Source: Saprospiraceae bacterium (GTDB lineage Bacteria > Bacteroidota > Bacteroidia > Chitinophagales > Saprospiraceae). Taken from it: 48,755 nucleotides of DNA. Under the pieces are notes generated by a model. That model was not told the origin of the DNA. It did not search any database and saw only the letters and a list, made by a program, of their open reading frames with translations. Of the stretch, positions 3,001 to 46,972 are shown piece by piece (within the stretch, counting starts at the first letter, position 1; each line of letters begins with the position of its first letter). The stretch lies in NCBI GenBank assembly GCA_015490175.1, contig WFYJ01000267.1:1-48755 (forward strand), written 5' to 3'. The translations under genes and the position numbers were made by a program.

Positions 3001-4618
3001 TGGACATATTGCCATTCACGTCCACCACATCGAGCGTCACCGTATTGGGTCCGATATTGGTGCAATCGAAATTGGAAGGCGTTACGGAAAGCGAATTGAG
3101 GCCACAGGCATCGTTGGAGCCGTTGTCCACATCGGCAGCCGTAATACTGGCCTGCCCCGTGGCATCGAGCACTACGGTAATGTCCTGGCAAAGAGCCTCG
3201 GGCGCCACATTGTCTTCGACCGTCACCTGTGCCATGCAATTGTCAGCGTTGCCGCTGCCGTCGGTGGCCGTAAGGGTGACGTTTACGGGCGTACCTGTAT
3301 CGGCACAACTGAAAGTGGTGATATCCAGGGAGAGATTTACGGGTGGGCAGTTGTCGGTACTGCCATTATCGACGTCGGTGGGGCTGATGGACGCGTTACC
3401 CGTGGCGTCGAGCTGTACGGTAATGTTCTGGCAGGCGGCCACAGGTGCGATATTGTCCTGCACCGTCACATTGGCCGTGCAGGTACTGCTGTTGCCGGAA
3501 AGATCCGAAGCCATGAGCGTCACTGTCTGCGTGGTACCGGCATGGCTGCAATCGAAGGCAGAGGGATTTACCGAAAGGTTGACCGTGCCGCAGTTGTCAC
3601 TGCTGCCGCCGTCCACATCAGCGGGGCTGACAGTGGCCGTCCCCATGGCGTCCAGCAATACGGTGGCATCCTGGCAAAGAGCCGTGGGTGGCGTATCATC
3701 CTGGACCGTCACCGTGGCGTTGCAGGTGCTGCTGTTGCCATTGGCATCGGTTACTTGCAGCGTCACGGTCTGATTGCCGATGTCGGCGCAGGTAAATACA
3801 GCTGGATCGGCAGGTGCAAGGAGCGCAAAGGAAAGCGCCCCCGGGCAATTATCGGTCGAGCCGCCATCGACGTCGGTAGCCTGGACGGTAACCGAGCCGG
3901 AAGCATCGAGCGATACGGTGATGTCCTGGCACACAGCTGTAGGCGGCGTATTGTCCTGTACGGTGACCGTCACCGTCGTTGCCGGCGAGGTGCCACAGAA
4001 GTTGGTCTCCGTCACGTCGAAGGTGAGCGTACCCGGTCCGGCGGCATTGATAGTGGTGCCGGACAGCGTGGCGCCCGTGCCGCCGTCGTTGAAATTGGTG
4101 ATGTTGAAGGTCGAAGCACCCTGCGTGTTGTTGGCGGAGCTCACGCCCGCGGCCACGAGGGCATCAACGGAACTGTTGGGGCACATGGCAAAGTCGGAAG
4201 CTGTCGGGGGATTGACCGGATCATCTTCAATAATGAAGGTGATGGTCGTCGTTTCGCCTACCAGGCAGGTGCCGCCCGGGTCGTCCGTCACTTCATAGGT
4301 AACCGTGTACGTACCCGGCGCCGTACCGGCCATCACGGTCAGGACGTTGACACCATCGAGGGCACCCGGAATGTTGTGGGTAAACATCCCGACCGTTTGC
4401 ATGCCTGCCGGCGGGATATCCGGGGCAATGTTGTAGGTGGTGGAGGCAATATCGGTTTCACAGATGGTCAGCGTACCGCCATCGGGTACGCCGTTGAGGG
4501 TGGGATTACACTGGGACCACCCCGTTTCCGGCAAGAAGCACAATGCTGCGCACACAGCAACAAAGACCGGAACACCAACCTGAAAACCACGGAAAAAGGT
4601 AAAGGATCGGCTCCTCAT
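1..4618 (-). CDS. Giant HYR/SprB-like repeat surface protein (C-terminus beyond the window)
   Basis: One frame stays open from an ATG at 4618 to the window edge, about 1539 codons, with no stop. A signal peptide is visible (RSRSFTFFRG followed by a hydrophobic stretch ending near ETGWSQ). After an N-terminal part of about 215 residues come about seven HYR-like modules of about 80 residues. Each has the pattern C-x-D-I/A-T-V-x-L-D-A, then D-V-D-G-G-S-x-D-N-C, F-x-C and VT-D-x-x-G-N-S-S-T-C. Residues about 780-1320 carry at least four SprB/PKD-like units with VTDANGCT-type signatures, and HYR modules then resume up to the edge (last residues AFDCGD). Such proteins in Bacteroidota are usually exported by the type IX system as adhesins or gliding-related surface proteins. 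That role is inferred, because the sorting domain would lie outside the window. The even pairs of Cys suggest an extracellular, disulfide-bonded protein. Confidence 0.88.
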   Translation of the reverse strand, partial: MRSRSFTFFRGFQVGVPVFVAVCAALCFLPETGWSQCNPTLNGVPDGGTLTICETDIASTTYNIAPDIPPAGMQTVGMFTHNIPGALDGVNVLTVMAGTAPGTYTVTYEVTDDPGGTCLVGETTTITFIIEDDPVNPPTASDFAMCPNSSVDALVAAGVSSANNTQGASTFNITNFNDGGTGATLSGTTINAAGPGTLTFDVTETNFCGTSPATTVTVTVQDNTPPTAVCQDITVSLDASGSVTVQATDVDGGSTDNCPGALSFALLAPADPAVFTCADIGNQTVTLQVTDANGNSSTCNATVTVQDDTPPTALCQDATVLLDAMGTATVSPADVDGGSSDNCGTVNLSVNPSAFDCSHAGTTQTVTLMASDLSGNSSTCTANVTVQDNIAPVAACQNITVQLDATGNASISPTDVDNGSTDNCPPVNLSLDITTFSCADTGTPVNVTLTATDGSGNADNCMAQVTVEDNVAPEALCQDITVVLDATGQASITAADVDNGSNDACGLNSLSVTPSNFDCTNIGPNTVTLDVVDVNGNMSTCNATVTVQDNTPPTISCPPNQTVNNDPGLCEAVVNYPPATATDNCNVTITYSQASGTAFPVGTTTVTATATDDGGNTAQCTFDVTVNDVEDPVITCPADITTNNDPGVCGADVSFAATATDNCSATITYSHAPGSTFPVGLTSVTATATDSTGNSASCTFNILVNDTEAPVAVCQDITVTLDAATGTASITAADVDGGSTDNCAITNSSVSPNSFTCADNGSTVSVTLTVKDTVGNSDNCTALVTVQSTLSANITGPTDVCVGNTITLDGNPSGGAMPYTHAWTKIGGTGDATLVDNGNGTADLTGTVAGTVEVEYTVTDANGCTSSDTVTVSVNPNPAPTIVASETSGLADNDGHICEGDSITLDAGAGYTAYMWNTGDMTQTITVAPAAGLQSYSVTVTDANGCMGSDTYAVTITSNPTVSILVSETSGTTANDGVICSGDNVLLTASATGTAPFTYLWSNGSMAQFLSENPGTTTTYSVTVTDANGCTATASTTITVNDPPTAGPIVSNPSTGVCIGSSATLDGQPVAGSGTLTVHTWTITGASDPAIQAAATLINNNDGTATLTIAPGAPAGTIDVSYAVADDNGCESGTVNATINVNPVPDVAASATNTTICEGESAALIGIVVSGTAPYNYMWSLDAASTATGTIDMPTDQSPNFLATGAGTAILNFVVTDANSCTSATASVTITVDPAPAPNPITGPVSVCPASTHTYSVTTDNTAAGATYQWILYSGGTIVTAATGPSIDILWGMATGGPHTLMVEETINGCSTINTLDITVEDNVAPVITLCPADRNVNLDASCALTVPNLTGEVGATDDCGVGSITQSPTAGTVLASAHGMTHDVTITVTDYGGNTATCTVALTGNDITPPTAVCQDVTVQLDAMGMASITGMDIDGGSTDNCNVASLDPHPDNFDCDDLGANTVTLEVADDAGNTATCTATVTVEDNIAPTAQCQDVTVQLDANGMGSTSAAAVNNGSTDNCSIDSMTLSQTAFDCGD
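2280..3960 (-). repeat. Tandem HYR-encoding DNA repeats, period about 240 bp
   Basis: The + strand signature CAGTTGTCGG (coding for the DNC motif on the minus strand), or a close variant, recurs near 2394, 2630, 2865, 3105, 3351, 3591 and 3848, a spacing of 235-257 bp. Each unit encodes one HYR module of the surface protein. The units have diverged, which suggests old duplication rather than fresh slippage. Confidence 0.8.
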
Positions 4619-5364: not shown

Positions 5365-5377
5365 TTTGCCGAAAGGC
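5365..5377 (+). repeat. TTT-flanked GAAA mini-hairpin upstream of cysM
   Basis: TTTGCC-GAAA-GGC, a member of the dispersed mini-hairpin family described in the findings. It ends 17 bases before the cysM ATG, inside the probable leader. Confidence 0.65.
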
Positions 5378-6370: not shown

Positions 6371-6826
6371 ATGTCCCGCGCTGTTTTTACCCTCGTCCTG
6401 TCGCCCGAAGTGGACGCACACATCCGCCGCCACGGCGAAGCAGCCTGGCCGTACGAGTGTTGCGGTTTCCTGTACGGCCCGGCCGACGGCAATCCGCGCC
6501 TCATCACCCGGGCGCTGCGCGCGCCCAACAGCAAGGAAGGCGACCAGCGCCGCCGCTTCGAAATCGCCCCGACGGACTACCTCGAGGCCGAGCGATATGC
6601 CGCCGATCATGGCTTGCAACTGCTCGGCATCTACCACTCGCACCCGGAACACCCCGCCGTGGCCTCGAAGCACGACCTGGCGCAGGCCATGCCCTTTTTC
6701 AGCTACGTCATCGTCTCGGTGCGCGGAGGACGTGCCGCAGAGATGCGGTCGTGGCGACTGCGCGACGAGGTGCGCGCCTTCGACGAGGAGACCATCCTGA
6801 TTGCACCTGCTTTCGCAAAACACTGA
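6371..6826 (+). CDS. JAMM/MPN metallopeptidase, Mec+-like
   Basis: A 151-residue single-domain JAMM (Mov34/MPN/PAD-1) zinc protease. The catalytic Glu is E29 in PYECCGF, and the metal site is H89-S-H91-P with S99-x-x-D102, so all JAMM residues are present. Bacterial enzymes of this size cut after the Gly-Gly tail of small ubiquitin-like sulfur carriers. Mec+ of mycobacteria releases cysteine from CysO-cysteine, and QbsD and HcyD trim residues beyond the di-glycine. The gene starts 31 bases after cysM and ends 28 bases before the carrier gene, so co-transcription is likely. The C-terminal AFAK is encoded by one copy of the dispersed mini-hairpin motif (6809-6820). Confidence in the family is high; the substrate is inferred from context. 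Confidence 0.9.
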   Translation: MSRAVFTLVLSPEVDAHIRRHGEAAWPYECCGFLYGPADGNPRLITRALRAPNSKEGDQRRRFEIAPTDYLEAERYAADHGLQLLGIYHSHPEHPAVASKHDLAQAMPFFSYVIVSVRGGRAAEMRSWRLRDEVRAFDEETILIAPAFAKH

Positions 6827-7278: not shown

Positions 7279-8418
7279 ATGAGCCAACCAACCATTCTTT
7301 CCCCTGCCGAGCTGGCGCGCTATGCCCGTCACATCGCCATACCGGAATTCGGCGTCGAGGGCCAGGAAAAGCTGAAGCGCGGCAGCGTGCTCGTCATCGG
7401 ATCGGGCGGGCTGGGCAGTCCGCTGCTGCTGTACCTCGCTGCGGCGGGCGTGGGCCGCATCGGCATCGTGGACTTCGACCTGGTGGACGAGAGCAACCTG
7501 CAGCGGCAGGTGCTCTTCAGCGTGGATGACGTGGGCCGGCCCAAGGCGCTCGTAGCCAAAGAACGGCTCCAGAAGCTCAACCCGCACATCGAGATCGAGG
7601 TGTATCTCGAGCGCTTCAGCACCGAGAATGCGCGTGCGCTGGTACGCCGGTACGACGTGGTGGCCGACGGCACCGACAACTTTCCCACGCGCTACCTCGT
7701 CAACGACGCCTGCGTGCTCGAAGACCGCGTCAACGTCTATGCGTCCATTTTCCGCTTCGAGGGGCAGGTTTCCGTGTTCAACTACCGCTATGCCGACGGC
7801 ACGCGCGGCCCCAACTACCGCGACATGTTTCCCGAGCCGCCACCGCCGGGCCTGGTGCCCAACTGCGCCGAGGGTGGCGTGCTGGGCGTGCTGCCCGGCA
7901 TCATCGGCTCGATGCAGGCCAGCGAGGTGATCAAGGTGCTCACGGGCGTGGGCGAGCCGCTGGCCGGCCGTCTCTTCCTGTTCGATGCGGCCACCTTCAG
8001 TACGCGCATCCTGAAAGTGCCCAAAAACCCCGACACGCGCATCACCGGACTGATCAACTACGATCAATTCTGCGGGCTTTCGCCAAAAGAAGAGACGCCC
8101 GTCCGATCGATCACGGTGCAGGAGCTGGCCCGCCTGCGCGAAAGCGGTGCCGACTTTCAGCTCATCGACGTGCGCGAGCCCTACGAGTACGGCATCGCCA
8201 ATCTGGGGGGCGAGCTGATCCCGCTGGGCAGCATCGAGGAGGCGGCCGACCGCATCGCGCGCGACAGAATGGTCGTGCTCTACTGCCGCAGCGGTCAGCG
8301 CAGTGCCGACGCCATCCGGCGGCTGCAGCAACGCTTCGGCTTCGACAACCTCTACAACCTCGAAGGCGGCATCCTGGCCTGGGCGCGCGAAATCGATGCG
8401 TCGGTGCCGACGTACTGA
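7279..8418 (+). CDS. moeZ: MoeZ/MoeB-type E1 adenylyl- and sulfurtransferase with rhodanese domain
   Basis: A 379-residue fusion of a ThiF/MoeB/HesA E1-like domain (about 1-260) and a C-terminal rhodanese domain (about 280-379). The nucleotide loop GSGGLGS is at 41-47, followed by the acidic strand IVDFD and NLQRQ. The conserved cysteine C196 sits in VPNCAEGGVLG. The rhodanese active loop CRSGQRS has its Cys at about 336, so persulfide transfer is plausible. Such proteins adenylate the Gly-Gly end of MoaD/CysO carriers and then form the thiocarboxylate, so it would feed the CysO-like protein encoded upstream. The gap to cysO is 148 bases and contains hairpins, so expression may be partly uncoupled. 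The segment GLSPKE is encoded by one mini-hairpin motif copy (8075-8088). Confidence 0.9.
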   Translation: MSQPTILSPAELARYARHIAIPEFGVEGQEKLKRGSVLVIGSGGLGSPLLLYLAAAGVGRIGIVDFDLVDESNLQRQVLFSVDDVGRPKALVAKERLQKLNPHIEIEVYLERFSTENARALVRRYDVVADGTDNFPTRYLVNDACVLEDRVNVYASIFRFEGQVSVFNYRYADGTRGPNYRDMFPEPPPPGLVPNCAEGGVLGVLPGIIGSMQASEVIKVLTGVGEPLAGRLFLFDAATFSTRILKVPKNPDTRITGLINYDQFCGLSPKEETPVRSITVQELARLRESGADFQLIDVREPYEYGIANLGGELIPLGSIEEAADRIARDRMVVLYCRSGQRSADAIRRLQQRFGFDNLYNLEGGILAWAREIDASVPTY

Positions 8419-8880: not shown

Positions 8881-8915
8881 TTTTGGCGAAAGCCGGGTTT
8901 CATTTGGCGAAAGCC
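8881..8915 (+). repeat. Two direct copies of the TTTGGC-GAAA-GCC mini-hairpin
   Basis: TTTTGGCGAAAGCC at 8881-8894 and TTTGGCGAAAGCC at 8903-8915, nine bases apart in the same orientation, just beyond the nhaC stop codon. Confidence 0.7.
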
Positions 8916-11031: not shown

Positions 11032-11044
11032 TTTGGCGAAAGCC
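11032..11044 (+). repeat. TTTGGC-GAAA-GCC mini-hairpin in the nhaC / FG-GAP divergent region
   Basis: One copy of the dispersed motif, 12 bases upstream of the nhaC start on its template side and about 80 bases before the next + gene. The variant TTTTGGC-GGCA-GCC lies a little further on, near 11089. Confidence 0.6.
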
Positions 11045-11123: not shown

Positions 11124-13409
11124 ATGGCCTTCCGCTCATTTACCCCCCTGTTTTTCAGTGCATTCGCTCTGGTACTCCTTTCCCGCGAGTTGGCGGCCCA
11201 GCCTGCCGGCCGCATGTGGTTTGCGCTTTCGCAAAATGAAGCCCCGCTGAAGCTCGGCCTGAGCGGCGGCCTGAACACGCCCCAGTTTCACGCTGCCGAC
11301 CTCGACCTCGACGGCGACGACGATCTGCTGGTCTTCGACCGCACGGGCAACCAGTGGGTCACCTTCCGCAATGACGGCAGCACCGCTCAGCCCGACTGGC
11401 AGTTCGATCCGGCGCTTGCGCAAAACCTGCCCGCGCAGCGCAACTGGGTGCTGGTGCGCGACTTCAACGGCGACGGTCTGCCCGACCTGTTCGGCCACAG
11501 CCAGCCCGAAGGCATCAGCGGCGTGCGCGTGTGGCGCGGCTACGACGACGGCGGCACGCTCAAGTTTGCGCGCGTGCTCTTCCCCGACTTCCAGAAAGAC
11601 GTGCTGTGGTTCGAGCTGGCCAACGGCACCCCCACCCAGATCTACGTCAGCAACGTGGACCTGCCCGCCCTCGAAGACGTGGACCAGGACGGCGACCTCG
11701 ACCTGCTGACCTACGACATCGGCGGCAGCTATCTGGAGTGGTATCGCAATACCTCGGCCGAAAACGGCTTCGGTGCCGACTCGCTGCGCTTTGTGCGCGA
11801 AGACATGTGCTGGGGGCGCTTCTACGAATCGTCTTTCTCGCAGACCATCGCGCTGAGCGACGATCCCGACCAGTGCGCGCAGGGCTTCGCCCCGCCCAAA
11901 GGCGGCCTGCCCGAGGCCCTGCACCCGGGCTCGACGACCCTCGTGCTCGACATTGACGGCGACGGCGACCTCGACGCCCTCATCGGCGACATCATCTCGC
12001 CCTATCTCATTCTCCTGAAAAACAGCACTACCGATCCCGCCGCCTGGATGACCGAACAGGACCCGACCTGGCCCTCCGACGACACGCCCGTCGAGATTCC
12101 CTACTTCGCCGCGGCCTTCCTGCTCGACATCGACGGCGACGGCCTCGACGACGTGATGGCCGCCCCCAACGCCATCAACAACGCACCCACCTACCAGTCG
12201 GCATGGTGGTACCGCAACACGGGCACGGCCAACGCCCCCCACTTCGAGCTGCAAACCAAATCATTCCTGATCGAAGACATGCTCGACCTGGGTGCGGGCG
12301 CCCACCCCGCCTTCGCCGACGTGGATGCCGACGGCGACCTCGATCTGGTGGTGGGCAACCACTCCTACTTCCTGCCCGACGGCAATCACGACGCGCGCCT
12401 CCACCTGCTGCGCAATACGGGCACACCCACCGCGCCGGCTTTCGAGCTGGCCGACGCCGACTGGCTCTTCCTCGGCCAGTTCAGTACGCAGGCATGGAGC
12501 TACGCCCCCGCCTTCGGCGACCTCGACCAGGATGGCGATCTCGACCTGGTGGTGGGCACCTCCGAGGGCAAGCTCTTCTTCCTCGAAAACACGGCCGGCC
12601 CCGATCAGCCCATGAGCTTCAGCGCGCCGCAATATTTCTGGCAACAGATAGACGTGGGCCTCAACGCGCGCCCCTTCATTGCCGACCTCGATGGCGATGG
12701 CCTGGCCGACCTCGTCATCGGCGAGACCAACGGAAATGTCAACTACTTCCCCAACATCGGCACGCCGGGCAATCCGCTGTTTCACCCCAACCCCGACGAG
12801 GCGCCCAACAACTTCTTCCTCGGCCAGGTGGATGCCACCGTGCCGGGCGACGTACAGGGCTATTCCACGCCCGTGCTCGTGCCGAACGGCACCGACTGGT
12901 ACCTGCTCACCGGCACCAAGGCCGGCACGCTCGAGCTCTACGGCGACGTCGGCACGCACCTCGACAGCGGTCCCTTCACCCTCATTGACGACCACTGGCT
13001 CGGCATAGACGTGGGCGCACGCTCGGCACCGGCCCTGGCCGACCTCGACGGCGACGGCTGGCTCGACCTGGTGGTGGGCAACCTGCGCGGCGGCATCGAA
13101 GCATGGCACACGCCCCTGCCCGCACAGACGACCGTGGCCACCACCGAACCGCACCGCCCCCCCCGCCTCTTCCGGCTTTCGCCAAATCCCGCCGCCGACC
13201 ACTGCACGCTCGTCCGGCTTTCGCCAAACGGCACCCGTGCCCATGTCGCCCTTCTCGACCTGAACGGGCGTGTCCTCTGGGAGACTGCCACCAACGACGA
13301 TCGCGTCGAAGTGCCGCTCCGGCATTTGCCGAAAGGCGTCTATCTCTGTCGCATGCGCACGGGCGAGGGCACGCAGAGTGAGCTGGTTGTGGTGAGGAGT
13401 GAGGAGTGA
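11124..13409 (+). CDS. Secreted FG-GAP/VCBS repeat protein with T9SS type A sorting domain
   Basis: A 761-residue protein with signal peptide (SFTPLFFSAFALVLLSRELA, then AQPAG). Nine or so calcium-binding FG-GAP motifs follow, for example DLDLDGDDDLL, DFNGDGLPD, DVDQDGDLD, DIDGDGDLD, DVDADGDLD and DLDGDGWLD, which predicts a beta-propeller surface protein. Residues about 682-761 form a type IX secretion type A domain: FRLSPNPAADH, then LDLNGRVLWE and LPKGVYLCRM. The protein should cross the outer membrane and be anchored or released. The function of the propeller is unknown. Three mini-hairpin motif copies fall within 165 bases of the sorting-domain sequence (13174, 13216, 13325) and encode RLSPN, RLSPN and LPKGV. 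Confidence 0.9.
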   Translation: MAFRSFTPLFFSAFALVLLSRELAAQPAGRMWFALSQNEAPLKLGLSGGLNTPQFHAADLDLDGDDDLLVFDRTGNQWVTFRNDGSTAQPDWQFDPALAQNLPAQRNWVLVRDFNGDGLPDLFGHSQPEGISGVRVWRGYDDGGTLKFARVLFPDFQKDVLWFELANGTPTQIYVSNVDLPALEDVDQDGDLDLLTYDIGGSYLEWYRNTSAENGFGADSLRFVREDMCWGRFYESSFSQTIALSDDPDQCAQGFAPPKGGLPEALHPGSTTLVLDIDGDGDLDALIGDIISPYLILLKNSTTDPAAWMTEQDPTWPSDDTPVEIPYFAAAFLLDIDGDGLDDVMAAPNAINNAPTYQSAWWYRNTGTANAPHFELQTKSFLIEDMLDLGAGAHPAFADVDADGDLDLVVGNHSYFLPDGNHDARLHLLRNTGTPTAPAFELADADWLFLGQFSTQAWSYAPAFGDLDQDGDLDLVVGTSEGKLFFLENTAGPDQPMSFSAPQYFWQQIDVGLNARPFIADLDGDGLADLVIGETNGNVNYFPNIGTPGNPLFHPNPDEAPNNFFLGQVDATVPGDVQGYSTPVLVPNGTDWYLLTGTKAGTLELYGDVGTHLDSGPFTLIDDHWLGIDVGARSAPALADLDGDGWLDLVVGNLRGGIEAWHTPLPAQTTVATTEPHRPPRLFRLSPNPAADHCTLVRLSPNGTRAHVALLDLNGRVLWETATNDDRVEVPLRHLPKGVYLCRMRTGEGTQSELVVVRSEE
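13174..13337. repeat. Three mini-hairpin motif copies inside the T9SS domain coding sequence
   Basis: GGCTTTCGCCAAA at 13174-13186 and 13216-13228, and TTTGCCGAAAGGC at 13325-13337. The first two read as the reverse orientation on the coding strand. Confidence 0.7.
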
Positions 13410-16274: not shown

Positions 16275-17509
16275 TGGTTTTCAGGGCAACAAAAAAGTGC
16301 AACCCTTTTCTTTTTCTGCTACTCGTGCTGGCACTGGCCTGCCAGTCTTCCGCGCCGCCCCGCTCGGCCACTTCCCCTCAGGGCCGCCTTTCGGCAAATG
16401 AAACCCGCGTGCGCCCCGGTGCCGAACGCCTTGAAGTGGTACTGCCCCTGCTGCGCGGCAAAAGAGTGGGCCTGGTGGTCAACCACACCTCGCTGGTCGG
16501 TCAGACCCATCTGGTGGACACGCTGCTGGCCAGTGGCATCAAAGTGGTGCGCATCTTCGCGCCCGAGCACGGCTTCCGCGGCACGGCCGACGCCGGCGAG
16601 CGCCTCACCGACAGTCGCGACCCCCGCACCGGCCTGCCCGTCATTTCGCTCTACGGCAAAAAGAAAAAGCCCGCACCGAAAGACCTGGCAGGCCTCGACC
16701 TCGTGGTGTACGACATCCAGGACGTGGGTGCCCGCTTTTACACCTACATCTCGACCATGAGCCTGGTGATGGAAGCCTGCGCCGAACAGGGCGTGCCTTT
16801 CCTCGTGCTGGACCGCCCCGACCCCAACGGCCACTACGTCGATGGCCCCGTGCTCGACACGGCCTTTCGCTCGTTTGTGGGCATGCACCCTGTGCCCGTA
16901 GTCTATGGCATGACGCCCGGCGAGTATGCGCGCATGGTCAACGGCGAGGGCTGGCTGAAAGGCGGCATCCACTGCGCGCTCGATGTGGTGCCCTGCGCGG
17001 GCTACACCCACGACACGCCCTATACCCTGCCGGTGCGGCCCAGCCCCAACCTGCCCAACATGCGGGCCGTGTATCTCTACCCTTCGCTGTGCTTCTTCGA
17101 GCCCACGGTGGTCAGCGTGGGCCGCGGCACCGACAAGCAGTTCCAGGTGATCGGCGCGCCCGAAGCGCCCATTGGCGATTACGAATTCAGGCCGATGCCC
17201 ATGCCGGGCGCGCGCCATCCCAAGCACGAGGGCAAGCGCTGCCGCGGCTTCGACCTCACCACCCTCGCTCCCGAAGCCATACGCAACCAGCGACAGCTCG
17301 ACCTCAGCTGGCTCATTCGCTTCTACCAGGCATGGCCCGACAAATCGTCCTTTTTCCTTTCGGAAAAAACGTTCGACCGCCTGGCCGGCACCGACCAGTT
17401 GCGCCGACAACTGGCCGCGGGCATGAGTGAAGAAGAAATCCGGCAAAGCTGGCAGCAGGACCTGCAGCGCTTTCGCCTGATGCGCAGGAAGTACCTGCTG
17501 TACGACTGA
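16274..17509 (+). CDS. NamZ-like exo-beta-N-acetylmuramidase (DUF1343, GH171) lipoprotein
   Basis: A 411-residue protein with a lipoprotein signal: hydrophobic LFLLLVLALAC with lipobox Cys at residue 23. DUF1343 motifs are intact: VVNHTSLVG, FAPEHGFRG, VYDIQDVGARFYTYISTM and LDRPDPNG. Characterised members (NamZ of Bacillus and Tannerella) remove terminal N-acetylmuramic acid from peptidoglycan fragments, so a role in cell-wall recycling in the periplasm is likely. The length matches the family. The residues RLSANE near the mature N-terminus are encoded by a mini-hairpin copy (16386-16398). Another perfect dyad, TTTTTCC-TTTC-GGAAAAA, lies at 17351-17368 within the coding sequence. Confidence 0.88.
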   Translation: MVFRATKKCNPFLFLLLVLALACQSSAPPRSATSPQGRLSANETRVRPGAERLEVVLPLLRGKRVGLVVNHTSLVGQTHLVDTLLASGIKVVRIFAPEHGFRGTADAGERLTDSRDPRTGLPVISLYGKKKKPAPKDLAGLDLVVYDIQDVGARFYTYISTMSLVMEACAEQGVPFLVLDRPDPNGHYVDGPVLDTAFRSFVGMHPVPVVYGMTPGEYARMVNGEGWLKGGIHCALDVVPCAGYTHDTPYTLPVRPSPNLPNMRAVYLYPSLCFFEPTVVSVGRGTDKQFQVIGAPEAPIGDYEFRPMPMPGARHPKHEGKRCRGFDLTTLAPEAIRNQRQLDLSWLIRFYQAWPDKSSFFLSEKTFDRLAGTDQLRRQLAAGMSEEEIRQSWQQDLQRFRLMRRKYLLYD

Positions 17510-20480: not shown

Positions 20481-22028
20481 ATGTCAACCTTCGAAACGAT
20501 GCTGCGCACACATTTGCTCTTGTTATTCGTCTGTCTCCGCCTTTCGGCAAATGCTTTCCAGACCCAGGCCGACTGGCAATGGCTCGACACGACCGTCACG
20601 CGCGCCCTGGACACCTTCGGCACCACAGGGCTGGCCATCGCCGTGGTGCAAGACGGCCAGGTCGTCTTTGCAAAGGGGTACGGCCGGGCCGATGCGGAAG
20701 CAGGCATTCCTCTGACCACCCGCCACCTGTTCAACATCGCCTCGTGCAGCAAGGCCTTCACTGCGGCGGCCGTGGCGCTGCTGGTCGAGGAAGGCAAGTT
20801 GAGCTGGGACGACAAGGTGACGGACTGGCTGCCCGAGTTTCGCCTCAGCGACGACTGGATCACGCGCCAGCTCGAAGTGCGCGACCTGCTGTGCCATCGT
20901 TCGGGCCTGGCCACCTTCATGGGCGACCTTTTGTGGTACCACTCCCGCTACACCGATGAGGAAGTGATGCGTCGCATGCGCTACCTGCCCATCGAGCGCG
21001 ACTTCCGCAGCGAGTACGGTTATCAGAACAACATGTACATGGTGGCGGGCCTCATCATCGAGCGGGCCTCGGGCATGGACTGGGAGCGGTTCGTTCGCGA
21101 GCGCCTGCTTCTGCCACTCGACATGACGCATACGCGCACTTCCAACGATTCGCTCAAGGGCTACGATCCGCTGGCATGGCCGCACATCGGCGGCAGGCGC
21201 ATCGAACCGCACGACTTCAACGCCACCAAGCCCGCCGCATCGCTCTTCGCCAGCGTGGACGACCTGACGCACTGGGTGCAGATGTGGCTCGATGAGGGCC
21301 GGTATGCCGGCAGGTCCATTTTGCCGCAAGGCAGCCTGCAAGCACTCACCAGCCCGCAGACCATCATGCGCGTCAATGGCTTCGAGCGCGCCCTGGGTAC
21401 CCACTTCAAGGCCTACGCCCTGGGCTGGCGCCTGTTCGACTACGGCGGCAAGATGGTGGTGGAGCATGACGGCGGCATGCCGGGCTACATCAGCAAGATA
21501 ACTCTCGTGCCCGAGGCCAACCTCGGCATCATCATCCTCAACAACGGCATGGATTTCTTCATCAACTCGGCCCTGCGCTACCAGATCCTTCAACGCGCTC
21601 TCGGCACTGCCGACACGCGTGACTTCATCGCCCAATATGCCCGCTTCCGCAAAAACTACCTCCAGCGCAAGGCCGAACAGGAAGCCCGCCGGTTGGCCGC
21701 ACGCGTCGAGGGCACCCGGCCTTCGCTGCCGCCCGATGCCTGGACGGGCGTGTACGAAGACCGCTGGTACGGAAAGGCCATCGTCAGTCAGAAAAAGGAC
21801 GGATCGCTGCTGCTGACCTTCGAGCCGGCAGCCGAAGTATTTACCGGGCCGCTGACCCACTGGCATTACGACACGTGGCGGGTGGACTTCCGCGACCCAT
21901 TCCTCACCTTCGGGCTGGTCAAATTCGAAATGGACGCCTACGGCCAACCCACCGGCTTCACCATCGACCTGCCCAGCGACGACTTCCACTTCGACAAGCT
22001 GCATTTCCGGAAGGTGGATGGAGAGTGA
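20481..22028 (+). CDS. Secreted serine beta-lactamase-like (class C / AmpH-type) hydrolase with DUF3471-type C-terminus
   Basis: A 515-residue protein if started at 20481; an in-frame ATG at 20499 gives a more compact signal peptide (MLRTHLLLLFVCLRLSANA). The frame is open further upstream to 20376, but that part precedes the promoter box. Residues about 30-390 form a beta-lactamase/DD-peptidase fold: S88-C-S-K91 is the nucleophile motif, YQN (in YGYQNNMYM) the second motif, and HDGGMPGY the third. The last ~100 residues (LPPDAWTGVYEDRWYGKA onward) look like a DUF3471 domain. Family members are esterases, D-aminopeptidases or penicillin-binding enzymes; antibiotic resistance is not implied. 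The signal-peptide end RLSAN is encoded by a mini-hairpin copy (20540-20552). Confidence 0.87.
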   Translation: MSTFETMLRTHLLLLFVCLRLSANAFQTQADWQWLDTTVTRALDTFGTTGLAIAVVQDGQVVFAKGYGRADAEAGIPLTTRHLFNIASCSKAFTAAAVALLVEEGKLSWDDKVTDWLPEFRLSDDWITRQLEVRDLLCHRSGLATFMGDLLWYHSRYTDEEVMRRMRYLPIERDFRSEYGYQNNMYMVAGLIIERASGMDWERFVRERLLLPLDMTHTRTSNDSLKGYDPLAWPHIGGRRIEPHDFNATKPAASLFASVDDLTHWVQMWLDEGRYAGRSILPQGSLQALTSPQTIMRVNGFERALGTHFKAYALGWRLFDYGGKMVVEHDGGMPGYISKITLVPEANLGIIILNNGMDFFINSALRYQILQRALGTADTRDFIAQYARFRKNYLQRKAEQEARRLAARVEGTRPSLPPDAWTGVYEDRWYGKAIVSQKKDGSLLLTFEPAAEVFTGPLTHWHYDTWRVDFRDPFLTFGLVKFEMDAYGQPTGFTIDLPSDDFHFDKLHFRKVDGE

Positions 22029-22503: not shown

Positions 22504-22516
22504 TTTGGCGAAAGCC
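22504..22516 (+). repeat. TTTGGC-GAAA-GCC mini-hairpin between rpsT and sucA
   Basis: Non-coding copy of the dispersed motif in the 249-base divergent region, preceded by a run of T. Confidence 0.6.
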
Positions 22517-25425: not shown

Positions 25426-25457
25426 TCGCCATTTGCCTTTCGGCAAATGGCGATTTT
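25426..25457 (+). terminator. sucA terminator built on a mini-hairpin motif
   Basis: TCGCCATTTGCC (25426-25437), loop TTTC, GGCAAATGGCGA (25442-25453): a perfect 12-bp stem followed by TTTT. The inner 16 bases (25432-25447) are one copy of the TTTGCC-GAAA-GGC family. It may serve both convergent genes. Confidence 0.85.
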
Positions 25458-25738: not shown

Positions 25739-26257
25739 ATGCGTCTTTTGCACAAACTCATCCTTATCGGCCTGTCGCTGGCGCTGGGCGTAGTGCTGCA
25801 CCTCCGCGAAGGCCTGAATGCCGCCTGGTACCTCTACGCGGCAGCGCTCCTGCTCGTGCTGGGCCATTTGCTCCTGGGCAACGTGGGGCAGGCGTGGAGC
25901 GCCCTGCAGCAAGGCGACCAGGAGCGCGCCCGCAAGCTGCTCGACGAGGTCTGGCAGCCCGACTGGCTGTTGCCCGCCCACCGCGGCCGCTACTATCTGA
26001 CTGCAGCCCTTTTGGCCCTACACCAGAAAGACCTCAACGAAGGGCAGCGCCTGCTGCAACGCGCCCTCGAGATCGAGGCCCTGCCCCGGCTCGACCGGGC
26101 CGTGGCCTTGCTCAACCTGGCACATATCTACATGGTGCAGGGTCGGCACGAGGAGGCCGCACGCCTGCTCGACGAAGCCGAGCGCCATGCCGGCAAAAAC
26201 GGCCCCGTGCTGCACCAGGTACGCAAGGCACGAGCCCTGCTTTCGCAAAACGCCTGA
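25739..26257 (+). CDS. Membrane-anchored TPR-like protein
   Basis: A 172-residue protein with two N-terminal membrane helices (LHKLILIGLSLALGVVL and WYLYAAALLLVLGHLLLG) and a cytosolic helical repeat part with TPR-like pairs (ARKLLDEVWQPDWLLP, GQRLLQRALEIEALPRLD, EEAARLLDEAERHAG). No specific family is recognised. It is followed at 59 bases by a gene of the same layout, so the two look like an old tandem duplication. The terminal LLSQNA is encoded by mini-hairpin motif 26239-26250, only a few bases before the stop. Confidence 0.72.
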   Translation: MRLLHKLILIGLSLALGVVLHLREGLNAAWYLYAAALLLVLGHLLLGNVGQAWSALQQGDQERARKLLDEVWQPDWLLPAHRGRYYLTAALLALHQKDLNEGQRLLQRALEIEALPRLDRAVALLNLAHIYMVQGRHEEAARLLDEAERHAGKNGPVLHQVRKARALLSQNA

Positions 26258-28855: not shown

Positions 28856-31207
28856 ATGAACAGGCAGGACACATCATTTTCCGGCAGGCGGAATGAGCAA
28901 ACAGGTGTAGCCGGCTTCTTTTTTTCCGGCTTTCGCCAAAAAAAGTGGCGTGGGGCAGGCGGTATTTGCCGAAAGGCCATGCTGGTGGTTGCCGGCGTGC
29001 TGTGGGTATGGGCGTTGCAGGCGGCCCACATCATCGGGGGTGAGATCACCTATACTTGCCTGGGCAACGACACCTACCGCTTCACCATGAAGATCTACCG
29101 CGACTGTGCGGGCGGCGGCGCCCAGTTCGACTCGGCCCCCAACAGCAATTCACTGCCCGGCACCGTCACGGTCTTCCACGGCACCAACATCTACACCATC
29201 ATCACGCTGCAGGCGCCGGTGGTGACCAGCATCCAGCCCGAGATCAGCAATCCCTGCCTCGTGGTGCCGCCCGGCATCTGCGTCGAAGAGGGCGTGTACA
29301 CCTTCACGCTGACGCTGCCCAAGAGCAACCAGAGCTACACGGTCTCGTACCAGCGCTGCTGCCGCAACAACACCATCACCAACATCGTTGACCCGGGCAA
29401 CGTGGGTGCCACCTACACCATCGAGCTGACGCCCGAAGCCCAACAGGTGTGCAACAGCAGCCCGAGCTTCAACGACTTTCCGCCCATCGTCATCTGCGCC
29501 GGCGAAGATATCGACTTCGACTTTTCGGCCACCGACCCCGATGGCGACCAGTTGGTGTACGAGTTCTGCGCGCCGTTCAAAGGGGGCGGCCCCAACACCG
29601 GCCAGCCCACCATCCCTACCGGCGTGGCGCCCGACCCCGACCTGCCTCCGCCATACATTCCCGTCAACTTCATTTCGCCGCCATACAGCCCGCTCAACCC
29701 CATGGGGGGCGATCCGCAGGTGACCATTGACCCGAACACGGGCCTGATCACGGGCGTGCCCACCACGCTGGGCCAGTTTGTGGTGGGCGTTTGCGTGTCG
29801 GAGTATCGCAACGGAGAATTGCTGAGCGTGCTGCGCCGCGATTTCCAGTTCAATGTGACGACCTGCGACCCCACCGTCGTGGCCGACATTGCCGAAGACA
29901 CTACAGTGATGAAGCAGGGGCGCACCTTCAACGTGGTGAACGCCTGCGGCGCCAGCCAGATCACAATCGACAACGAGAGCTATCAGCAGCAGTACATCGA
30001 GAACGCCTACTGGGAGTTTTTCATTGATGGCGCCTGGCAAACCATCAACCAGTGGGATGCCACGGTCACTCTGCCCGGCATCGGCTCCTACGACGGCCAG
30101 CTCATCCTCAACCCCAACACCGACTGCGGCGACACGGCCTACGTCCAGATCAACGTCTTCCCATCCATCGAAGCGGACTTCGACTACGATTACGATACCT
30201 GCCAAGCCGGGCCGGTGCAGTTTACCGACCTGTCCAGTTCGGGTGCGGGTCCGGGCTCGATCGTGCAATGGCAGTGGCAGTTCGGCGATGGGGGCGGTTC
30301 GACGGCCCGGCACCCTTCCTACACCTATTCCGAGCCGGGCTACCACGACGTCAGCCTCACCGTGACCGACACCAACAGCTGTAGCGCCACGAGCACGCGG
30401 ACCATTTCCTACTTCCCCGTGCCCAAGACGCTGATCGTGTCGCCCACCACGTTCAACGGCTGTCAGCCTGCCGAAATCTTTTTCGACAACCTTTCCAGCC
30501 CGATCAACGAGGAGTACGACATCTGGTGGGAGTTTGGCGACGGCGGCACGAGCACCGAGATCAGCCCTGTCTACGTCTATCAGGATACCGGCCTGTTCAC
30601 CATCTCGCTTTCGGTGGTGTCGCCGCTGGGCTGCGAGACCGACACGGTGTTTTACGACTGGATCCGCGTGCGGCCCTCGCCCACGGCAGGCTTCACCTAC
30701 GATCCACCCGTTGTGTCGCGCTTCGAGCCTACGGTCACCTTCACGGATCAGTCGCGCGATGCGGTCAAGTGGCAGTGGTTCTTCCCCGACGGCACGGTAG
30801 CGGCCCTGCCCAATGTAGTGCACACCTTCCCCGACACGGGCATGCAAGAGGTGGTGCAGGTAGTCACGCACCTGAGCGGATGCACCGATACGGCGCGGGC
30901 ATTCATCGACGTCATTCCCGACATCCGCTACTTCCTGCCCAATGCCTTTTCGCCCAATTACGACGGCATCAACGACTTTTTCCGGGGTGCGGGCGTGCTC
31001 GATGGCGTGCAGGACTTCCACCTGACCATCTGGAACCGCTGGGGCGAGCTGATCTTCGAGACCACCGATCCGACCGAAAGCTGGAACGGCCGCAAGCAGA
31101 ATACGGGTGCCGAAGCGCCGCCCGGCATCTACGTGGTGGTGGCCTCCATGCGCAGCCCGCGCGGCGAACAGCTCGAATTTCGCGGGTTCGTCACCCTGGT
31201 CCGGTAG
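28856..31207 (+). CDS. Secreted PKD-domain protein with gliding-motility-associated C-terminal domain
   Basis: Up to 783 residues. The hydrophobic export segment MLVVAGVLWVWALQA begins at 28979. Starting there leaves no basic n-region, so I keep the first in-frame ATG at 28856, with low certainty about the true start. The mature part opens with HIIGGEITYTCLGNDTY, a start shared by many Bacteroidota surface proteins. PKD units follow at about 460-560 (QWQWQFGDGGG), 560-640 (IWWEFGDGGTS) and 650-720 (KWQWFFPDGT). The end FLPNAFSPNYDGINDFF to GFVTLVR is the gliding-associated, type B T9SS sorting domain. It is expected on the cell surface as an adhesin or gliding-linked protein. Two inverted mini-hairpin copies (28928, 28965) lie before the hydrophobic segment. 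Confidence 0.87.
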   Translation: MNRQDTSFSGRRNEQTGVAGFFFSGFRQKKWRGAGGICRKAMLVVAGVLWVWALQAAHIIGGEITYTCLGNDTYRFTMKIYRDCAGGGAQFDSAPNSNSLPGTVTVFHGTNIYTIITLQAPVVTSIQPEISNPCLVVPPGICVEEGVYTFTLTLPKSNQSYTVSYQRCCRNNTITNIVDPGNVGATYTIELTPEAQQVCNSSPSFNDFPPIVICAGEDIDFDFSATDPDGDQLVYEFCAPFKGGGPNTGQPTIPTGVAPDPDLPPPYIPVNFISPPYSPLNPMGGDPQVTIDPNTGLITGVPTTLGQFVVGVCVSEYRNGELLSVLRRDFQFNVTTCDPTVVADIAEDTTVMKQGRTFNVVNACGASQITIDNESYQQQYIENAYWEFFIDGAWQTINQWDATVTLPGIGSYDGQLILNPNTDCGDTAYVQINVFPSIEADFDYDYDTCQAGPVQFTDLSSSGAGPGSIVQWQWQFGDGGGSTARHPSYTYSEPGYHDVSLTVTDTNSCSATSTRTISYFPVPKTLIVSPTTFNGCQPAEIFFDNLSSPINEEYDIWWEFGDGGTSTEISPVYVYQDTGLFTISLSVVSPLGCETDTVFYDWIRVRPSPTAGFTYDPPVVSRFEPTVTFTDQSRDAVKWQWFFPDGTVAALPNVVHTFPDTGMQEVVQVVTHLSGCTDTARAFIDVIPDIRYFLPNAFSPNYDGINDFFRGAGVLDGVQDFHLTIWNRWGELIFETTDPTESWNGRKQNTGAEAPPGIYVVVASMRSPRGEQLEFRGFVTLVR
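28928..28977. repeat. Inverted pair of mini-hairpin motifs at the PKD gene start
   Basis: GGCTTTCGCCAAA at 28928-28940 and TTTGCCGAAAGGC at 28965-28977. The second copy ends one base before the alternative start codon at 28979. Confidence 0.65.
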
Positions 31208-31219
31208 GCCGGCACTGCC

Positions 31220-32317
31220 CTATCGCACCAGCCATTCGGCACGCGCACTACCCAGGCGCAACCAGTGGTCGGCCAGCACAAGCGCCGTCATCGCTTCGAC
31301 GATGGGCACGGCCCGAGGCACCACGCAGGGGTCGTGGCGGCCCTTTCCTTCCACGGTGGTGGGGCGCCCCTGCCGATCCACCGACTCCTGGGCGGGCACG
31401 ATGGTCGCCACGGGCTTGAAGGCCGCGCGGAAGTAAATGGGCATGCCATTGCTGATGCCGCCCTGGATGCCGCCCGAGTGGTTGGTGCGCGTGCGGATGC
31501 GGCCTTCGTCGTCGGTATGGAAGGCGTCGTTGTGCTGCGAGCCGCGCATGCACACCCCATCGAAGCCCGACCCGTATTCGAAGCCCTTGCAGGCATTGAT
31601 ACTGAGGATGGCCTTGCCCAGGTCGGCGTGCAAGCGGTCGAAGACGGGCTCGCCCAGGCCTGCCGGCACGCCCGTGGCCACGCAGCTCACCACGCCGCCC
31701 ACCGTGTCGCCGGCCTTGCGCACCTCGCGGATCAGCGCTTCCATGCGCGCGGCCGTGTCGGCATCGGGGCAGCGTACGGGATTGGATTCAGTGCGCGCCA
31801 GATCGAGCTGGTGCCACTCGGCATCCAGCCGGATGTCGCCCACCTGGCTCACCCAGGCCTGCACCTCGACGCCGAGGGTGCGCAACAGCATTTTGGCGAA
31901 AGCCCCGGCGGCCACGCGGGCTGCCGTCTCGCGCGCCGACGAGCGCCCTCCGCCGCGATAGTCGCGCCGGCCGTAGCGCGCCTCCCAACTGAAGTCCGCG
32001 TGCGAGGGTCGGTACTTGTCAGCGATATGGCTGTAGTCGCGCGAGCGGGCGTCGCGGTTGCGGATGAGGATGGCGATGGGCATGCCCGTGGTGCGCCCCT
32101 CGAATACGCCCGACAGGATTTCGGCCTCGTCGGCCTCCTTGCGCTGGGTGACGATGGCCGACTGCCCGGGGCGGCGGCGGGCCAGGTCGCGCCGCAACAG
32201 CGCTTCATCCACCTCGATGCCTGCCGGACAGCCATCGATGACCACACCAATGGCCGGGCCATGGCTTTCGCCAAAAGTCGTAATGCGAAACAGCGTACCG
32301 AAAGTGTTGCCTGCCAT
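31220..32317 (-). CDS. aroC: Chorismate synthase
   Basis: A 365-residue FMN-dependent enzyme of the shikimate pathway, converting 5-enolpyruvylshikimate 3-phosphate to chorismate. Family signatures include [20 protein letters not shown] at the N-terminus, [37 protein letters not shown] and [13 protein letters not shown]. The length is standard. The gene overlaps no neighbour; upstream is copy B of the long dispersed repeat, and the start codon itself overlaps a TTTTGC-GAAA-GC motif (32317-32328). Two more motif copies lie within the gene, one encoding part of TTFGESHG (32273-32286), where the protein sequence is strongly conserved. Confidence 0.96.
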
Positions 32318-36780: not shown

Positions 36781-36793
36781 GCCTTTCGGCAAA
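36781..36793 (-). repeat. TTTGCC-GAAA-GGC mini-hairpin between SPOR gene and dapD
   Basis: Minus-orientation copy, 48 bases before the dapD start. Confidence 0.6.
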
Positions 36794-37668: not shown

Positions 37669-39198
37669 ATGAGAAAATTGATCAACAAGGCTTTCGCCAA
37701 AATATACCGCGCCCGCTATCGGCGCCTTGCCCACACCCTCGCGCACCCGCACGATGCCCAGCGCCAGGTCTTCGAACAGCTCATCCATGCCGGCCGACAG
37801 ACGGAGTGGGGGCGCGCTTTCGGCTATGGCGACATTGCCGACCCGAAGATGTTTGCCCGCCGCGTGCCCGTGCAACACTACGAAGACCTGAAGCCATGGA
37901 TCGATCGGATGATGCTGGGCGAGCGCGACGTGCTGTGGCCTGGCGAAGTGCGCTGGTTCAGCAAGTCGTCGGGCACCACCTCGGGGCGCAGCAAATTCAT
38001 TCCCGTGTCTGCCCAAAACCTGCGCCAGTGCCACATCCGCGGTAGCTGGGACACGATGACCTTCTTCTATAACCAGCGGGCCGACGCCAGGCAGTTTGCC
38101 TGCAAGAGCTTGCTGATGGGCGGGAGTCTGGCACCCTATGAGAAACATCCGCGCACGATGCGGGGCGACATCTCGGCCATCATGATCAAGCACATGCCCT
38201 GGTTTGCTCGCCCCTTCTTTACGCCCGACTTCGAGACGGCACTCATGGCCGACTTTGAAAAGAAAATCGAGCGCATGGCCCATATCACCAGCCGCGAGCC
38301 CCGCGTGGTGATGGTCGGTGGCGTGCCCACCTGGTCGGTCGTGCTGTTTCGCCGCATCCTCGAGTTGACGGGCAAGCGCCACATGCTCGAAGTGTGGCCC
38401 GAGTTTCAGCTCTACGTGCATGGCGGGGTGAGCTTTGCGCCGTACAAAAAGCAGTTTCGCGCGTTCTTCCCTTCCGATCAGGTGAGCTATCAGGAGGTGT
38501 ACAATGCTTCCGAGGGCTATTTCGCTGCCCAGGACCAGCTCGGCACCGAGGGCATGGCGCTGCTGGTGCGCAACGGCGTGTACTACGAGTTCATCCCGAT
38601 GAGCGAGTGGGGGTCCGACAAGCCGCTCACGCTCACGCTCGAGGAGGTAGAAACGGGCAAGAACTACGCGCTGGTCATTTCGACCAATGCGGGGCTGTGG
38701 CGCTATGCCATCGGCGATACCGTCATGTTTACCTCGCTCAACCCTTATCGCATCACGGTGACGGGACGCACGCGCCAGTTCATCAACGTCTTTGGCGAGG
38801 AGGTGATGGTAGAGAATACCGACAGGGCGATCGAGATGACGTGCGAGCAAACGGGTGCTGTGGTGCTGGAATACACGGTAGGGCCGGTCTGGCTCGAAGG
38901 CAGCTCGAAAGGCGGGCATGAGTGGATCGTCGAGTTCGAAAAGCTGCCGCCCGATCTGGAAGAGTTCCGCTGCCTGCTCGACCAGAACCTGCAAAAGGTC
39001 AATTCCGACTACGAAGCCAAGCGCTTTGGCGATCTTGCGCTCGACTTGTTGCTCCTGCACGTGGCGCCGCCGGGTACCTTTTTCAACTGGCTCAAGGCAC
39101 GCGGCCAGTTCGGCGGGCAGCACAAGGTGCCTCGCCTGTCCAACGATCGGAAATATCTGGACGAGTTACTGCAGTGGTTGGAGCGAACCCCTTCCTGA
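37669..39198 (+). CDS. GH3 auxin-responsive-promoter family protein (acyl-adenylating amide synthase fold)
   Basis: A 509-residue protein of the plant-GH3-like branch of the ANL adenylate-forming superfamily. The ATP/AMP motifs are FSKSSGTTSGRSKFIPVS (about 98-115), VYNASEGYFAAQD and STNAGLWRYAIGDTVMF. Plant relatives adenylate carboxylic acids such as jasmonate or indole-3-acetate and join them to amino acids. Bacteroidota members are common, but their substrates are not established. It is directly downstream of dapD. The N-terminal INKAFAKIY is encoded by a mini-hairpin copy (37689-37702). Confidence 0.87.
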   Translation: MRKLINKAFAKIYRARYRRLAHTLAHPHDAQRQVFEQLIHAGRQTEWGRAFGYGDIADPKMFARRVPVQHYEDLKPWIDRMMLGERDVLWPGEVRWFSKSSGTTSGRSKFIPVSAQNLRQCHIRGSWDTMTFFYNQRADARQFACKSLLMGGSLAPYEKHPRTMRGDISAIMIKHMPWFARPFFTPDFETALMADFEKKIERMAHITSREPRVVMVGGVPTWSVVLFRRILELTGKRHMLEVWPEFQLYVHGGVSFAPYKKQFRAFFPSDQVSYQEVYNASEGYFAAQDQLGTEGMALLVRNGVYYEFIPMSEWGSDKPLTLTLEEVETGKNYALVISTNAGLWRYAIGDTVMFTSLNPYRITVTGRTRQFINVFGEEVMVENTDRAIEMTCEQTGAVVLEYTVGPVWLEGSSKGGHEWIVEFEKLPPDLEEFRCLLDQNLQKVNSDYEAKRFGDLALDLLLLHVAPPGTFFNWLKARGQFGGQHKVPRLSNDRKYLDELLQWLERTPS

Positions 39199-39233: not shown

Positions 39234-39249
39234 TTTTGCGAAAGCAAAA
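39234..39249. repeat. Palindromic mini-hairpin TTTTGC-GAAA-GCAAAA between convergent genes
   Basis: A 6-bp perfect stem with a GAAA loop, between the GH3-family stop and the DUF4837 stop. T and A runs flank the stem on both strands, so it may act as a small bidirectional terminator. Confidence 0.6.
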
Positions 39250-46892: not shown

Positions 46893-46972
46893 GGCTTTCG
46901 CCAAATGCAGCCCTGCCGTTTGCCGAAAGGCGGATGACCCGATCGGAGGACATCCGCTTTTTTTGCGCAAGC
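46893..46972. repeat. Three mini-hairpin motifs around the amidohydrolase terminator
   Basis: GGCTTTCGCCAAA at 46893-46905 (minus), TTTGCCGAAAGGC at 46919-46931 (plus) and TTTTGCGCAAGC at 46961-46972 (plus), so three of the sequence classes occur within 80 bases. Confidence 0.7.
46930..46964 (+). terminator. Terminator after the amidohydrolase pair
   Basis: GCGGATG (46930-46936) and CATCCGC (46951-46957) form a 7-bp stem with a 14-base loop, directly followed by seven T. Confidence 0.7.

Follow-up and report, generated by a model that had tools for sequence, protein, structure and literature searches.

A dispersed TTT-hairpin motif held by base pairing in the genomes of some Saprospiraceae

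Results

Three copies of a mini-hairpin in the DNA of a T9SS sorting domain

We analyzed a 48,755-nucleotide stretch of DNA from Saprospiraceae bacterium (GenBank assembly GCA_015490175.1, contig WFYJ01000267.1, positions 1 to 48,755; hereafter, the window). A gene in this window encodes a secreted FG-GAP repeat protein that ends in a type IX secretion system (T9SS) type A sorting domain, and the DNA of this C-terminal domain (CTD) carries three copies of a 13-nt mini-hairpin motif (Table 1). The original prediction, made from the DNA letters, had placed two copies of GGCTTTCGCCAAA and one of TTTGCCGAAAGGC there. All three were found to be exact, within a span of 164 bases, and the encoded peptides RLSPN, RLSPN and HLPKGV were likewise borne out. 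The copies had also been assigned to conserved residues. Our reading of 84 CTD sequences suggests that this applies to the first RLSPN, a part of the PNP element, and to LPKGV, a part of the LPxG[VI]Y element, but not to the second RLSPN, which lies in a variable stretch. The sorting domain additionally matches PF18962 at the C terminus (33 bits, cut-off 27), and is an ordinary member of the T9SS type A family (TIGR04183/PF18962); only the DNA motif overlying its codons is unusual. GGCTTTCGCCAAA and TTTGCCGAAAGGC represent a single motif on opposite strands, composed of TTT, a 3-bp stem and a GAAA-type loop. When up to two mismatches were allowed, the window contained 31 matches, as compared with 1.96 +/- 1.55 in shuffled sequences.

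Form and abundance of the motif

In the following, G000 denotes the genome of the window, G001 its congener, and G027 a genome of another genus with 42% GC. The sample of G000 consisted of the window and 20 further stretches (408 kb), and is referred to unless the whole genome is mentioned. The motif has the form 5'-TTT-xyC-GN(A/C)A-Gy'x'-3', that is, an unpaired TTT, a stem of 2-3 bp and a GNNA-type loop, and it is dispersed genome-wide in some Saprospiraceae. In the whole genome, TTTGGCGAAAGCC occurs in 382 copies and its reversed control in none, while TTTNNCGAAAG occurs 1877 times, as compared with 46 times for the reversed control. In the sample, we found 80 copies of TTTGCCGAAAGGC and 48 of TTTGGCGAAAGCC, against Markov expectations of 0.085 and 0.021, respectively. 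The more general pattern TTTnnCGAAAGnn was found 191 times, and the arms match in 170 of these sites, which represent eleven stem types. The TTT is nearly obligatory, as 180 GAAA hairpins follow TTT and at most 4 follow any other trinucleotide. The loops of the paired matches closed by C-G were GAAA (170), GGAA (26), GCAA (18), GGCA (12), GACA (7) and GAGA (1), with no GCGA, GGGA or GTGA. The third loop base is thus A or C and rarely G, in which the motif differs from the GNRA loops of RNA.

Pairing is conserved while the stem letters vary

The neighborhood of TTTGCCGAAAGGC was examined for stem mutants. In comparison with the 80 perfect copies, the 18 possible single stem mutants summed to 3 (expected 0.82) and the 18 non-restoring double mutants to 5 (expected 0.42), whereas the 9 double mutants that restore pairing summed to 60 (expected 0.21). 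In an arm-shuffle test, the right arms were dealt out anew among the TTTnnCGNAAGnn sites and the paired sites were recounted. In G000, 216 of 274 sites were paired, as compared with a shuffled mean of 61.6 and a maximum of 85. The same was observed in G001 (62/101; mean 20.4, maximum 32), G027 (170/389; 39.4 and 58), G104 (31/42; 14.4 and 21), G110 (13/18; 5.2 and 10) and G060 (12/21; 2.8 and 8); the samples of G004, G018 and G030 had too few sites. When the left arms GC, GG and TG were set against the right arms GC, CC and CA in G000, 193 of the 195 sites were matched and 2 were mixed. The middle pair in G027 was C-G in 92 sites, G-C in 81, T-A in 28 and A-T in 24, with all remaining combinations jointly accounting for 45.

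At the outer pair in G000, T.G (43) was about as frequent as T-A (44), whereas G.T was found only 3 times, as compared with 162 for G-C. This difference between the two wobble pairs suggests that it is the TTT strand that folds. The hairpin has a predicted DNA folding energy of -2.3 kcal/mol, which is nearly lost on changing one arm; this prediction adds little, because the complement strand folds equally well on paper. Since pairing is retained and the stem letters are not, a reader of the motif would see one strand folded on itself, and we consider this folded-strand part of our explanation very probable.

Copies turn over in place

Copies of the motif change in place by point mutation. Long aligned pieces of G000 and G001 are 69-74% identical, and 52 distinct G000 sites could be aligned to G001; 10 of these retain the motif and 5 are exactly one substitution short of it. 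The orthologous alignments were ungapped at 43 of the 52 sites and contained a gap at 9. In the reverse direction, 10 of 15 G001 sites were retained. Decayed copies of the GCC and GGC stems were scarce in G000, where 128 perfect copies compare with 8 single mutants (changes at loop positions 7 and 8 disregarded); the corresponding numbers in G001 were 35 and 19.

Enrichment in the sorting domains of G000

The original prediction had raised the possibility that other sorting domains show the same enrichment, and had proposed a check of motif density across the genome. We therefore took all 84 TIGR04183 matches of G000 (20.3 kb) as the CTD set. These contained 38 GAAA-type copies, corresponding to 1.87/kb, as compared with 0.16/kb upstream in the same open reading frames (ORFs; 17 copies in the 104.4 kb of available ORF parts), and 33 of the 84 CTDs had at least one copy, so that the enrichment is present beyond the window. 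The density in called genes overall was 0.28/kb (90 GAAA-type copies in 323 kb), and 200 synonymous resamplings of the CTDs yielded a mean of 0.17 and a maximum of 2 copies. With all GN(A/C)A loops included, 44 of the 84 CTDs contained 54 copies (2.66/kb vs. 0.33/kb). Three CTDs have two copies, and only that of the window has three. Because the 35 copies in the other 83 CTDs already lead one to expect three or more copies in about 0.8 of 84 CTDs, the single one observed is unremarkable.

Among 63 LPxG sites, 32 are written as the hairpin TTTGCCGNMAGG, in which the slot residue is K in 19, E in 4, and T, A and Q in 3 each. The likeness of the flanks was 0.35/0.39 for the 19 LPKG copies and 0.33/0.38 for 35 LPxG control sites (the controls were anchored one base off, with little effect expected). 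The protein identity was 27.5% within the 19 CTDs with an LPKG motif and 24.4% between these and 51 motif-free CTDs (motif residues included). The slot residue varies while the hairpin stays, as would be expected if copies had arisen repeatedly in place, at a peptide slot that tolerates them, rather than by the copying of tails. Independent gain at such a slot is therefore a simpler account than domain shuffling.

In relatives, for which ten CTDs each were read, the copies were too few for a comparison: 2 central copies in G001 (5 outside), 1 in G027 (6 outside) and 0 in the motif-free G007. We also examined pre-adaptation in the small G007 sample (10 CTDs, 2.4 kb). With up to 3 mismatches, there were 0 near-matches in the CTDs, as compared with 14 in 29.8 kb of flanks; with up to 4 mismatches, the densities were 5.72/kb and 4.60/kb, respectively. 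The CTDs of G000 may be rich in copies because the motif can code LPxG[VI]Y and LSPNP with little change.

Location, orientation and flanks

Gene contexts were assigned with a simple ORF caller. The 244 copies with GNNA loops comprised 60 in sense and 83 in antisense orientation, 100 intergenic copies and 1 at a gene edge, so that 143 lie within called genes. Intergenic copies are about twofold enriched, as intergenic positions amount to 19.8%. In tandem intergenic stretches, 25 copies run along the gene direction and 21 opposite to it, and the intergenic density is highest between divergent genes (29 copies in 17.6 kb) and lowest between convergent ones (9 in 13.9 kb). Neighboring copies have the same orientation in 76 cases and the opposite one in 73, as expected at random, on contigs that are short and do not form a closed genome. 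GAAA-type copies occur at about one per 2.4 kb, evenly spread on both strands; the distribution over 77 bins of 5 kb (mean 2.00, variance 1.64) was slightly more even than Poisson. Gaps of less than 150 bases between copies were found 14 times, as compared with 9 expected, and 5 of these close pairs face each other with TTT inward. Three close pairs lie in the window, at 8882-8915, 28928-28977 and 46893-46931.

The flanks in G000 show a weak consensus: GGGY and CA precede TTT by 5-8 and 1-2 bases, respectively, and the 1-6 bases downstream are A-rich. A longer conserved element is not supported, as the flank context is weak in G000 and absent in G027. The motif does not behave as an intrinsic terminator, since the T run lies 5' and the intergenic copies are densest between divergent and sparsest between convergent genes. 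A phage origin found little support: the 15-mer form was found in 63 viral-contig stretches with one match each, and their 468 kb contained 1 further paired copy, a chance-like number.

Table 1. The host gene, its sorting domain and the hairpin copies in the window
Feature	Position	Strand	Remarks
Gene, secreted FG-GAP repeat protein with C-terminal T9SS sorting domain	11124..13409	+	Start codon from simple ORF caller; Pfam FG-GAP_3 and Por_Secre_tail
T9SS type A sorting domain	13179..13394	+	TIGR04183, 42.5 bits, cut-off 23
Hairpin copy TTT-GGC-GAAA-GCC	13174..13186	-	GGCTTTCGCCAAA, exact; sense strand codes RLSPN of conserved PNP element
Hairpin copy TTT-GGC-GAAA-GCC	13216..13228	-	GGCTTTCGCCAAA, exact; sense strand codes second RLSPN, variable stretch
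Hairpin copy TTT-GCC-GAAA-GGC	13325..13337	+	TTTGCCGAAAGGC, exact; codes HLPKG of LPxG[VI]Y element
Hairpin, ACC stem (TTTACCGAAAGGT)	3567..3579	+	
Hairpin, GCC stem	5365..5377	+	
Hairpin, TGC stem	6808..6820	-	
Hairpin, GGC stem	8075..8087	-	
Hairpin, GGC stem	8882..8894	+	
Hairpin, GGC stem	8903..8915	+	
Hairpin, GGC stem	11032..11044	+	Between divergent genes
Hairpin, GCC stem	16386..16398	-	
Hairpin, TCC stem (TTTTCCGAAAGGA)	17355..17367	-	
Hairpin, GCC stem	20539..20551	-	
Hairpin, GGC stem	22504..22516	+	Intergenic by simple ORF caller
Hairpin, GCC stem	25435..25447	-	
Hairpin, TGC stem	26238..26250	-	
Hairpin, GGC stem	28928..28940	-	Upstream of PKD/CHU_C T9SS protein
Hairpin, GCC stem	28965..28977	+	
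Hairpin, GGC stem	31892..31904	+	Inside chorismate synthase
Hairpin, GGC stem	32263..32275	-	Inside chorismate synthase ORF
Hairpin, TAC stem (TTTTACGAAAGTA)	33439..33451	-	
Hairpin, GCC stem	36781..36793	-	
Hairpin, GGC stem	37689..37701	-	
Hairpin, TGC stem	39234..39246	+	
Hairpin, GGC stem	46893..46905	-	Intergenic; faces copy at 46919..46931
Hairpin, GCC stem	46919..46931	+	Intergenic

Other features of the window include a run of AT-rich repeats resembling GTTTAGAGTTTA shortly after the T9SS gene (13538-13585), the sequence TTCGGTTCCTCGGTTCCTC, which is present in exact form at both 13624 and 13836, and a tRNA gene on the minus strand (17565-17639), which is the sole Rfam match at the gathering threshold in the window.

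Occurrence in the family and dialects

To survey the family, TTTNNCGNAAG was compared with its reversed control in 248 Saprospiraceae genomes, G000 included, and the results were counted by hand. The motif reached at least 3 times the control in 17 of the 248 genomes, belonging to 9 of 112 genera, and the remainder stayed below 2.8. Outside the family, none of 389 other Bacteroidota genomes was above about 2.1 times the control, as read by hand. At chorismate synthase loci, 17 of 80 had at least one paired copy and 63 had no paired GNAA copy, some of the loci being short and some from other families; an AsmA-like protein query against the genome contigs found no relatives.

The lineages differ in dialect. 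In G027, the stems are TGC, TCC and GGC, and the loops GCAA, GAAA, GTAA and GGAA. In G098, TTT is mostly preceded by GT, and the outer pair is relaxed, often to G.T or A.G; the middle position pairs in 26 of 28 sites and the outer pair in 9. The 100-kb sample of G110 contained further over-represented 10-mers, namely CCGTCGTGCT with 12 copies and overlapping words around GGTTAGCCAG with 7 copies.

Candidate machinery

ComEC was detected in 27 of the 28 genomes searched, including G000. The transposase family Y1_Tnp (RAYT, REP-associated tyrosine transposase, where REP stands for repetitive extragenic palindromic) was not found in G000 or G001; G027 has 2 matches, and 45 of 60 genomes have at least one. 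Among 14 motif-rich and 14 motif-poor genomes, Y2_Tnp was present in 2 and 3, respectively.

Discussion

An abundant, paired motif with lineage dialects, in-place turnover and, in G000, enrichment in CTDs may tentatively be explained as a dispersed self-recognition signal of folded single-stranded DNA (ssDNA) for uptake or recombination, which accumulates by point mutation. As DNA is taken up and recombined, a putative protein would identify self DNA by the folded TTT-hairpin, much as with the DNA uptake sequences (DUS) of Neisseriaceae. Alleles gaining a copy would be favored, and copies would accumulate by point mutation where the protein sequence tolerates them. The motif occurs on either strand and in every gene context, without a preferred orientation relative to transcripts, so that ssDNA is a more likely ligand than RNA. 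The structure of the motif is well supported; as to its function, we infer that the ligand is ssDNA, that the process is uptake or recombination, and that drive is the cause. In our analysis, uptake would rank ahead of a priming signal, an RNA signal and a duplex site for a dimer, although we stop short of calling it probable. More doubtful is the broader proposal that several Saprospiraceae lineages mark their chromosomes with at least 1000 ssDNA mini-hairpins that are read by shape and evolve by point mutation, as the first structure-coded self-DNA signal, with lineage dialects and without type IV pili or a REP transposase.

Several observations weigh against this explanation. In the arm-shuffle test, G180 (5/6 paired; shuffled mean 1.8, maximum 5) only equaled the best shuffle, on a sample of only 16.6 kb, and G098 (8/28 fully paired; mean 3.7, maximum 8) did no better than its best shuffle. 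No compensatory stem change was seen at orthologous sites, as no retained site of G000 and G001 differs in the stem. The scarcity of decayed copies is not general: the TGC stem in G000 had 25 perfect copies vs. 13 single mutants, 8 of which were T.G, and four stems in G027 had 46 perfect copies vs. 72 single mutants. The number of 5-kb bins without a copy (8 of 77) is about that of a Poisson distribution, and no motif-free islands were seen. ComEC does not distinguish motif-rich (13/14) from motif-poor genomes (14/14). T2SSF, the type IV pilus platform, was not found in G000 or G001, and was present in 3 of 40 genomes, which did not include G027; this family is present in the known bacteria with DUS or with uptake signal sequences (USS). 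Finally, the known uptake sequences are linear and, as far as is known, are read in double-stranded DNA.

The alternative that survives best, although we regard it as unlikely, is a single-strand initiation signal, at which a primase, a restart protein or RNA polymerase loads at the folded TTT-hairpin and starts synthesis 5' of it. Hairpin signals of this kind exist in some phages and plasmids. It would accommodate a paired unit whose stem has a constant, unpaired TTT on its 5' side, the even spread of GAAA-type copies over both strands at about one per 2.4 kb, and the weak GGGY consensus 5-8 bases 5' of TTT in G000. However, this consensus is absent in G027, a patchy occurrence within one family is ill-suited to a core replication signal, and neighboring copies have no orientation bias (76 same, 73 opposite), though lagging-strand use should produce one. 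We consider it improbable that the motif is an RNA signal, in which a UUU-hairpin would affect, for example, the stability of transcripts, pausing or the binding of small RNAs. Antisense copies are no rarer than sense copies (83 vs. 60), tandem intergenic copies are about evenly divided between the two directions (25 along, 21 against), GNGA loops are nearly absent, and the window has no Rfam family at threshold apart from the tRNA. The predicted RNA fold of the GCC and GGC stems (-3.4 kcal/mol) and the twofold intergenic enrichment (100/244 vs. 19.8% of positions) are in favor of such a signal, but the predicted RNA fold of the complement strand is no weaker (-4.2).

Less probable still is a double-stranded DNA site for a dimeric protein. 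The arms are indeed inverted repeats; however, degenerate half-sites should accept mixed arms, of which only 2 were found among 195 sites in G000, and neither the TTT nor the loop is symmetric. It appears very improbable that a HUH transposase (RAYT/Y1 or Y2) has spread the motif as a REP-like mobile element, although REP sequences, too, are short hairpins that have a constant 5' motif and occur in hundreds of copies. Neither G000 nor G001 has a Y1_Tnp match, Y2_Tnp occurs in 2/14 motif-rich and 3/14 motif-poor genomes, 43 of the 52 aligned orthologous sites are ungapped, and 143 of the 244 copies lie within called genes. The suggestion in the original prediction that recombination at the copies exchanges sorting domains between the tails of surface proteins found no support and has very little to recommend it beyond the enrichment in the CTDs of G000, which is real and large: the motif occurs genome-wide in both orientations, inside and outside genes, most copies lie outside CTDs, the flanks around CTD copies resemble one another no more than control flanks do, and CTDs with the LPKG motif are hardly closer to one another (27.5%) than to motif-free ones (24.4%). 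Equally remote is a by-product of mutation (for example, of template switching that turns short palindromes into perfect ones) or of codon usage, since, although DNA mini-hairpins with a GNNA loop on a C-G pair fold with unusual stability, the TTT is nearly obligatory (180 vs. 4), synonymous resampling of the CTDs yields a mean of 0.17 and at most 2 copies vs. 38, and many family members lack the motif.

Among known systems, the motif resembles DUS and the USS of Pasteurellaceae in being short, present in well over a thousand copies in both orientations, and located inside and outside genes. DUS occur in almost 1,500 copies without a general orientation bias in the genome (van Passel; PMC2346458) and in dialects (Frye et al.; PMC3630211). 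Restriction to a family and division into dialects are further points in common, the hairpin being found in 9 of 112 Saprospiraceae genera. In contrast, DUS and USS are linear, whereas the stem letters of the hairpin vary with pairing kept, so that the folded strand seems to be read, and T2SSF was not found in G000. The motif differs from REP/RAYT systems in that G000 and its congener have no Y1 transposase match, and in that its copies substitute in place and occur in coding sequence. As a linear consensus and T2SSF are missing for DUS/USS, and a Y1 transposase and the matching turnover for REP, we file the motif under neither. HIP1, Chi and further over-represented oligonucleotides are fixed short words, and the motif shares their extreme over-representation. 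Unlike these, it is a pairing rule with many words, and its neighboring copies on the short contigs are without the local polarity that Chi would show.

A 2008 survey of bacterial stem-loop families (PMC2267715) clustered similar sequences, and two thirds of the families had a common structure and were intergenic. The hairpin is like these repeat families, many of which have a common secondary structure, and differs in its unit of 13 nt, its hardly conserved flanks and the genic position of 143 of 244 copies. A 2026 survey of inverted repeats required arms of 10 bases or more (PMC13155455). Given this arm minimum and the clustering by similarity in the former survey, neither would be expected to detect a 13-nt hairpin. 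A description of such a motif was not found in the open-access literature, as judged by titles and the starts of abstracts, with most subscription papers outside this scope, and four spellings of the 13-mers were not found in the open-access literature searched.

That base pairing maintains a motif dispersed over both strands, whatever the reading frame, implies that the cell has a reader of folded ssDNA which acts chromosome-wide. Should the motif prove to serve uptake or recombination, DUS-like self-recognition would reach into the Bacteroidota and rest there on a new principle of recognition; should it serve priming, it would represent structure-coded starts on a bacterial chromosome. Either way, the tails of surface proteins are shaped by it: with 32 of 63 LPxG sites written as a hairpin, a constraint on the DNA helps to choose amino acids in secreted proteins.

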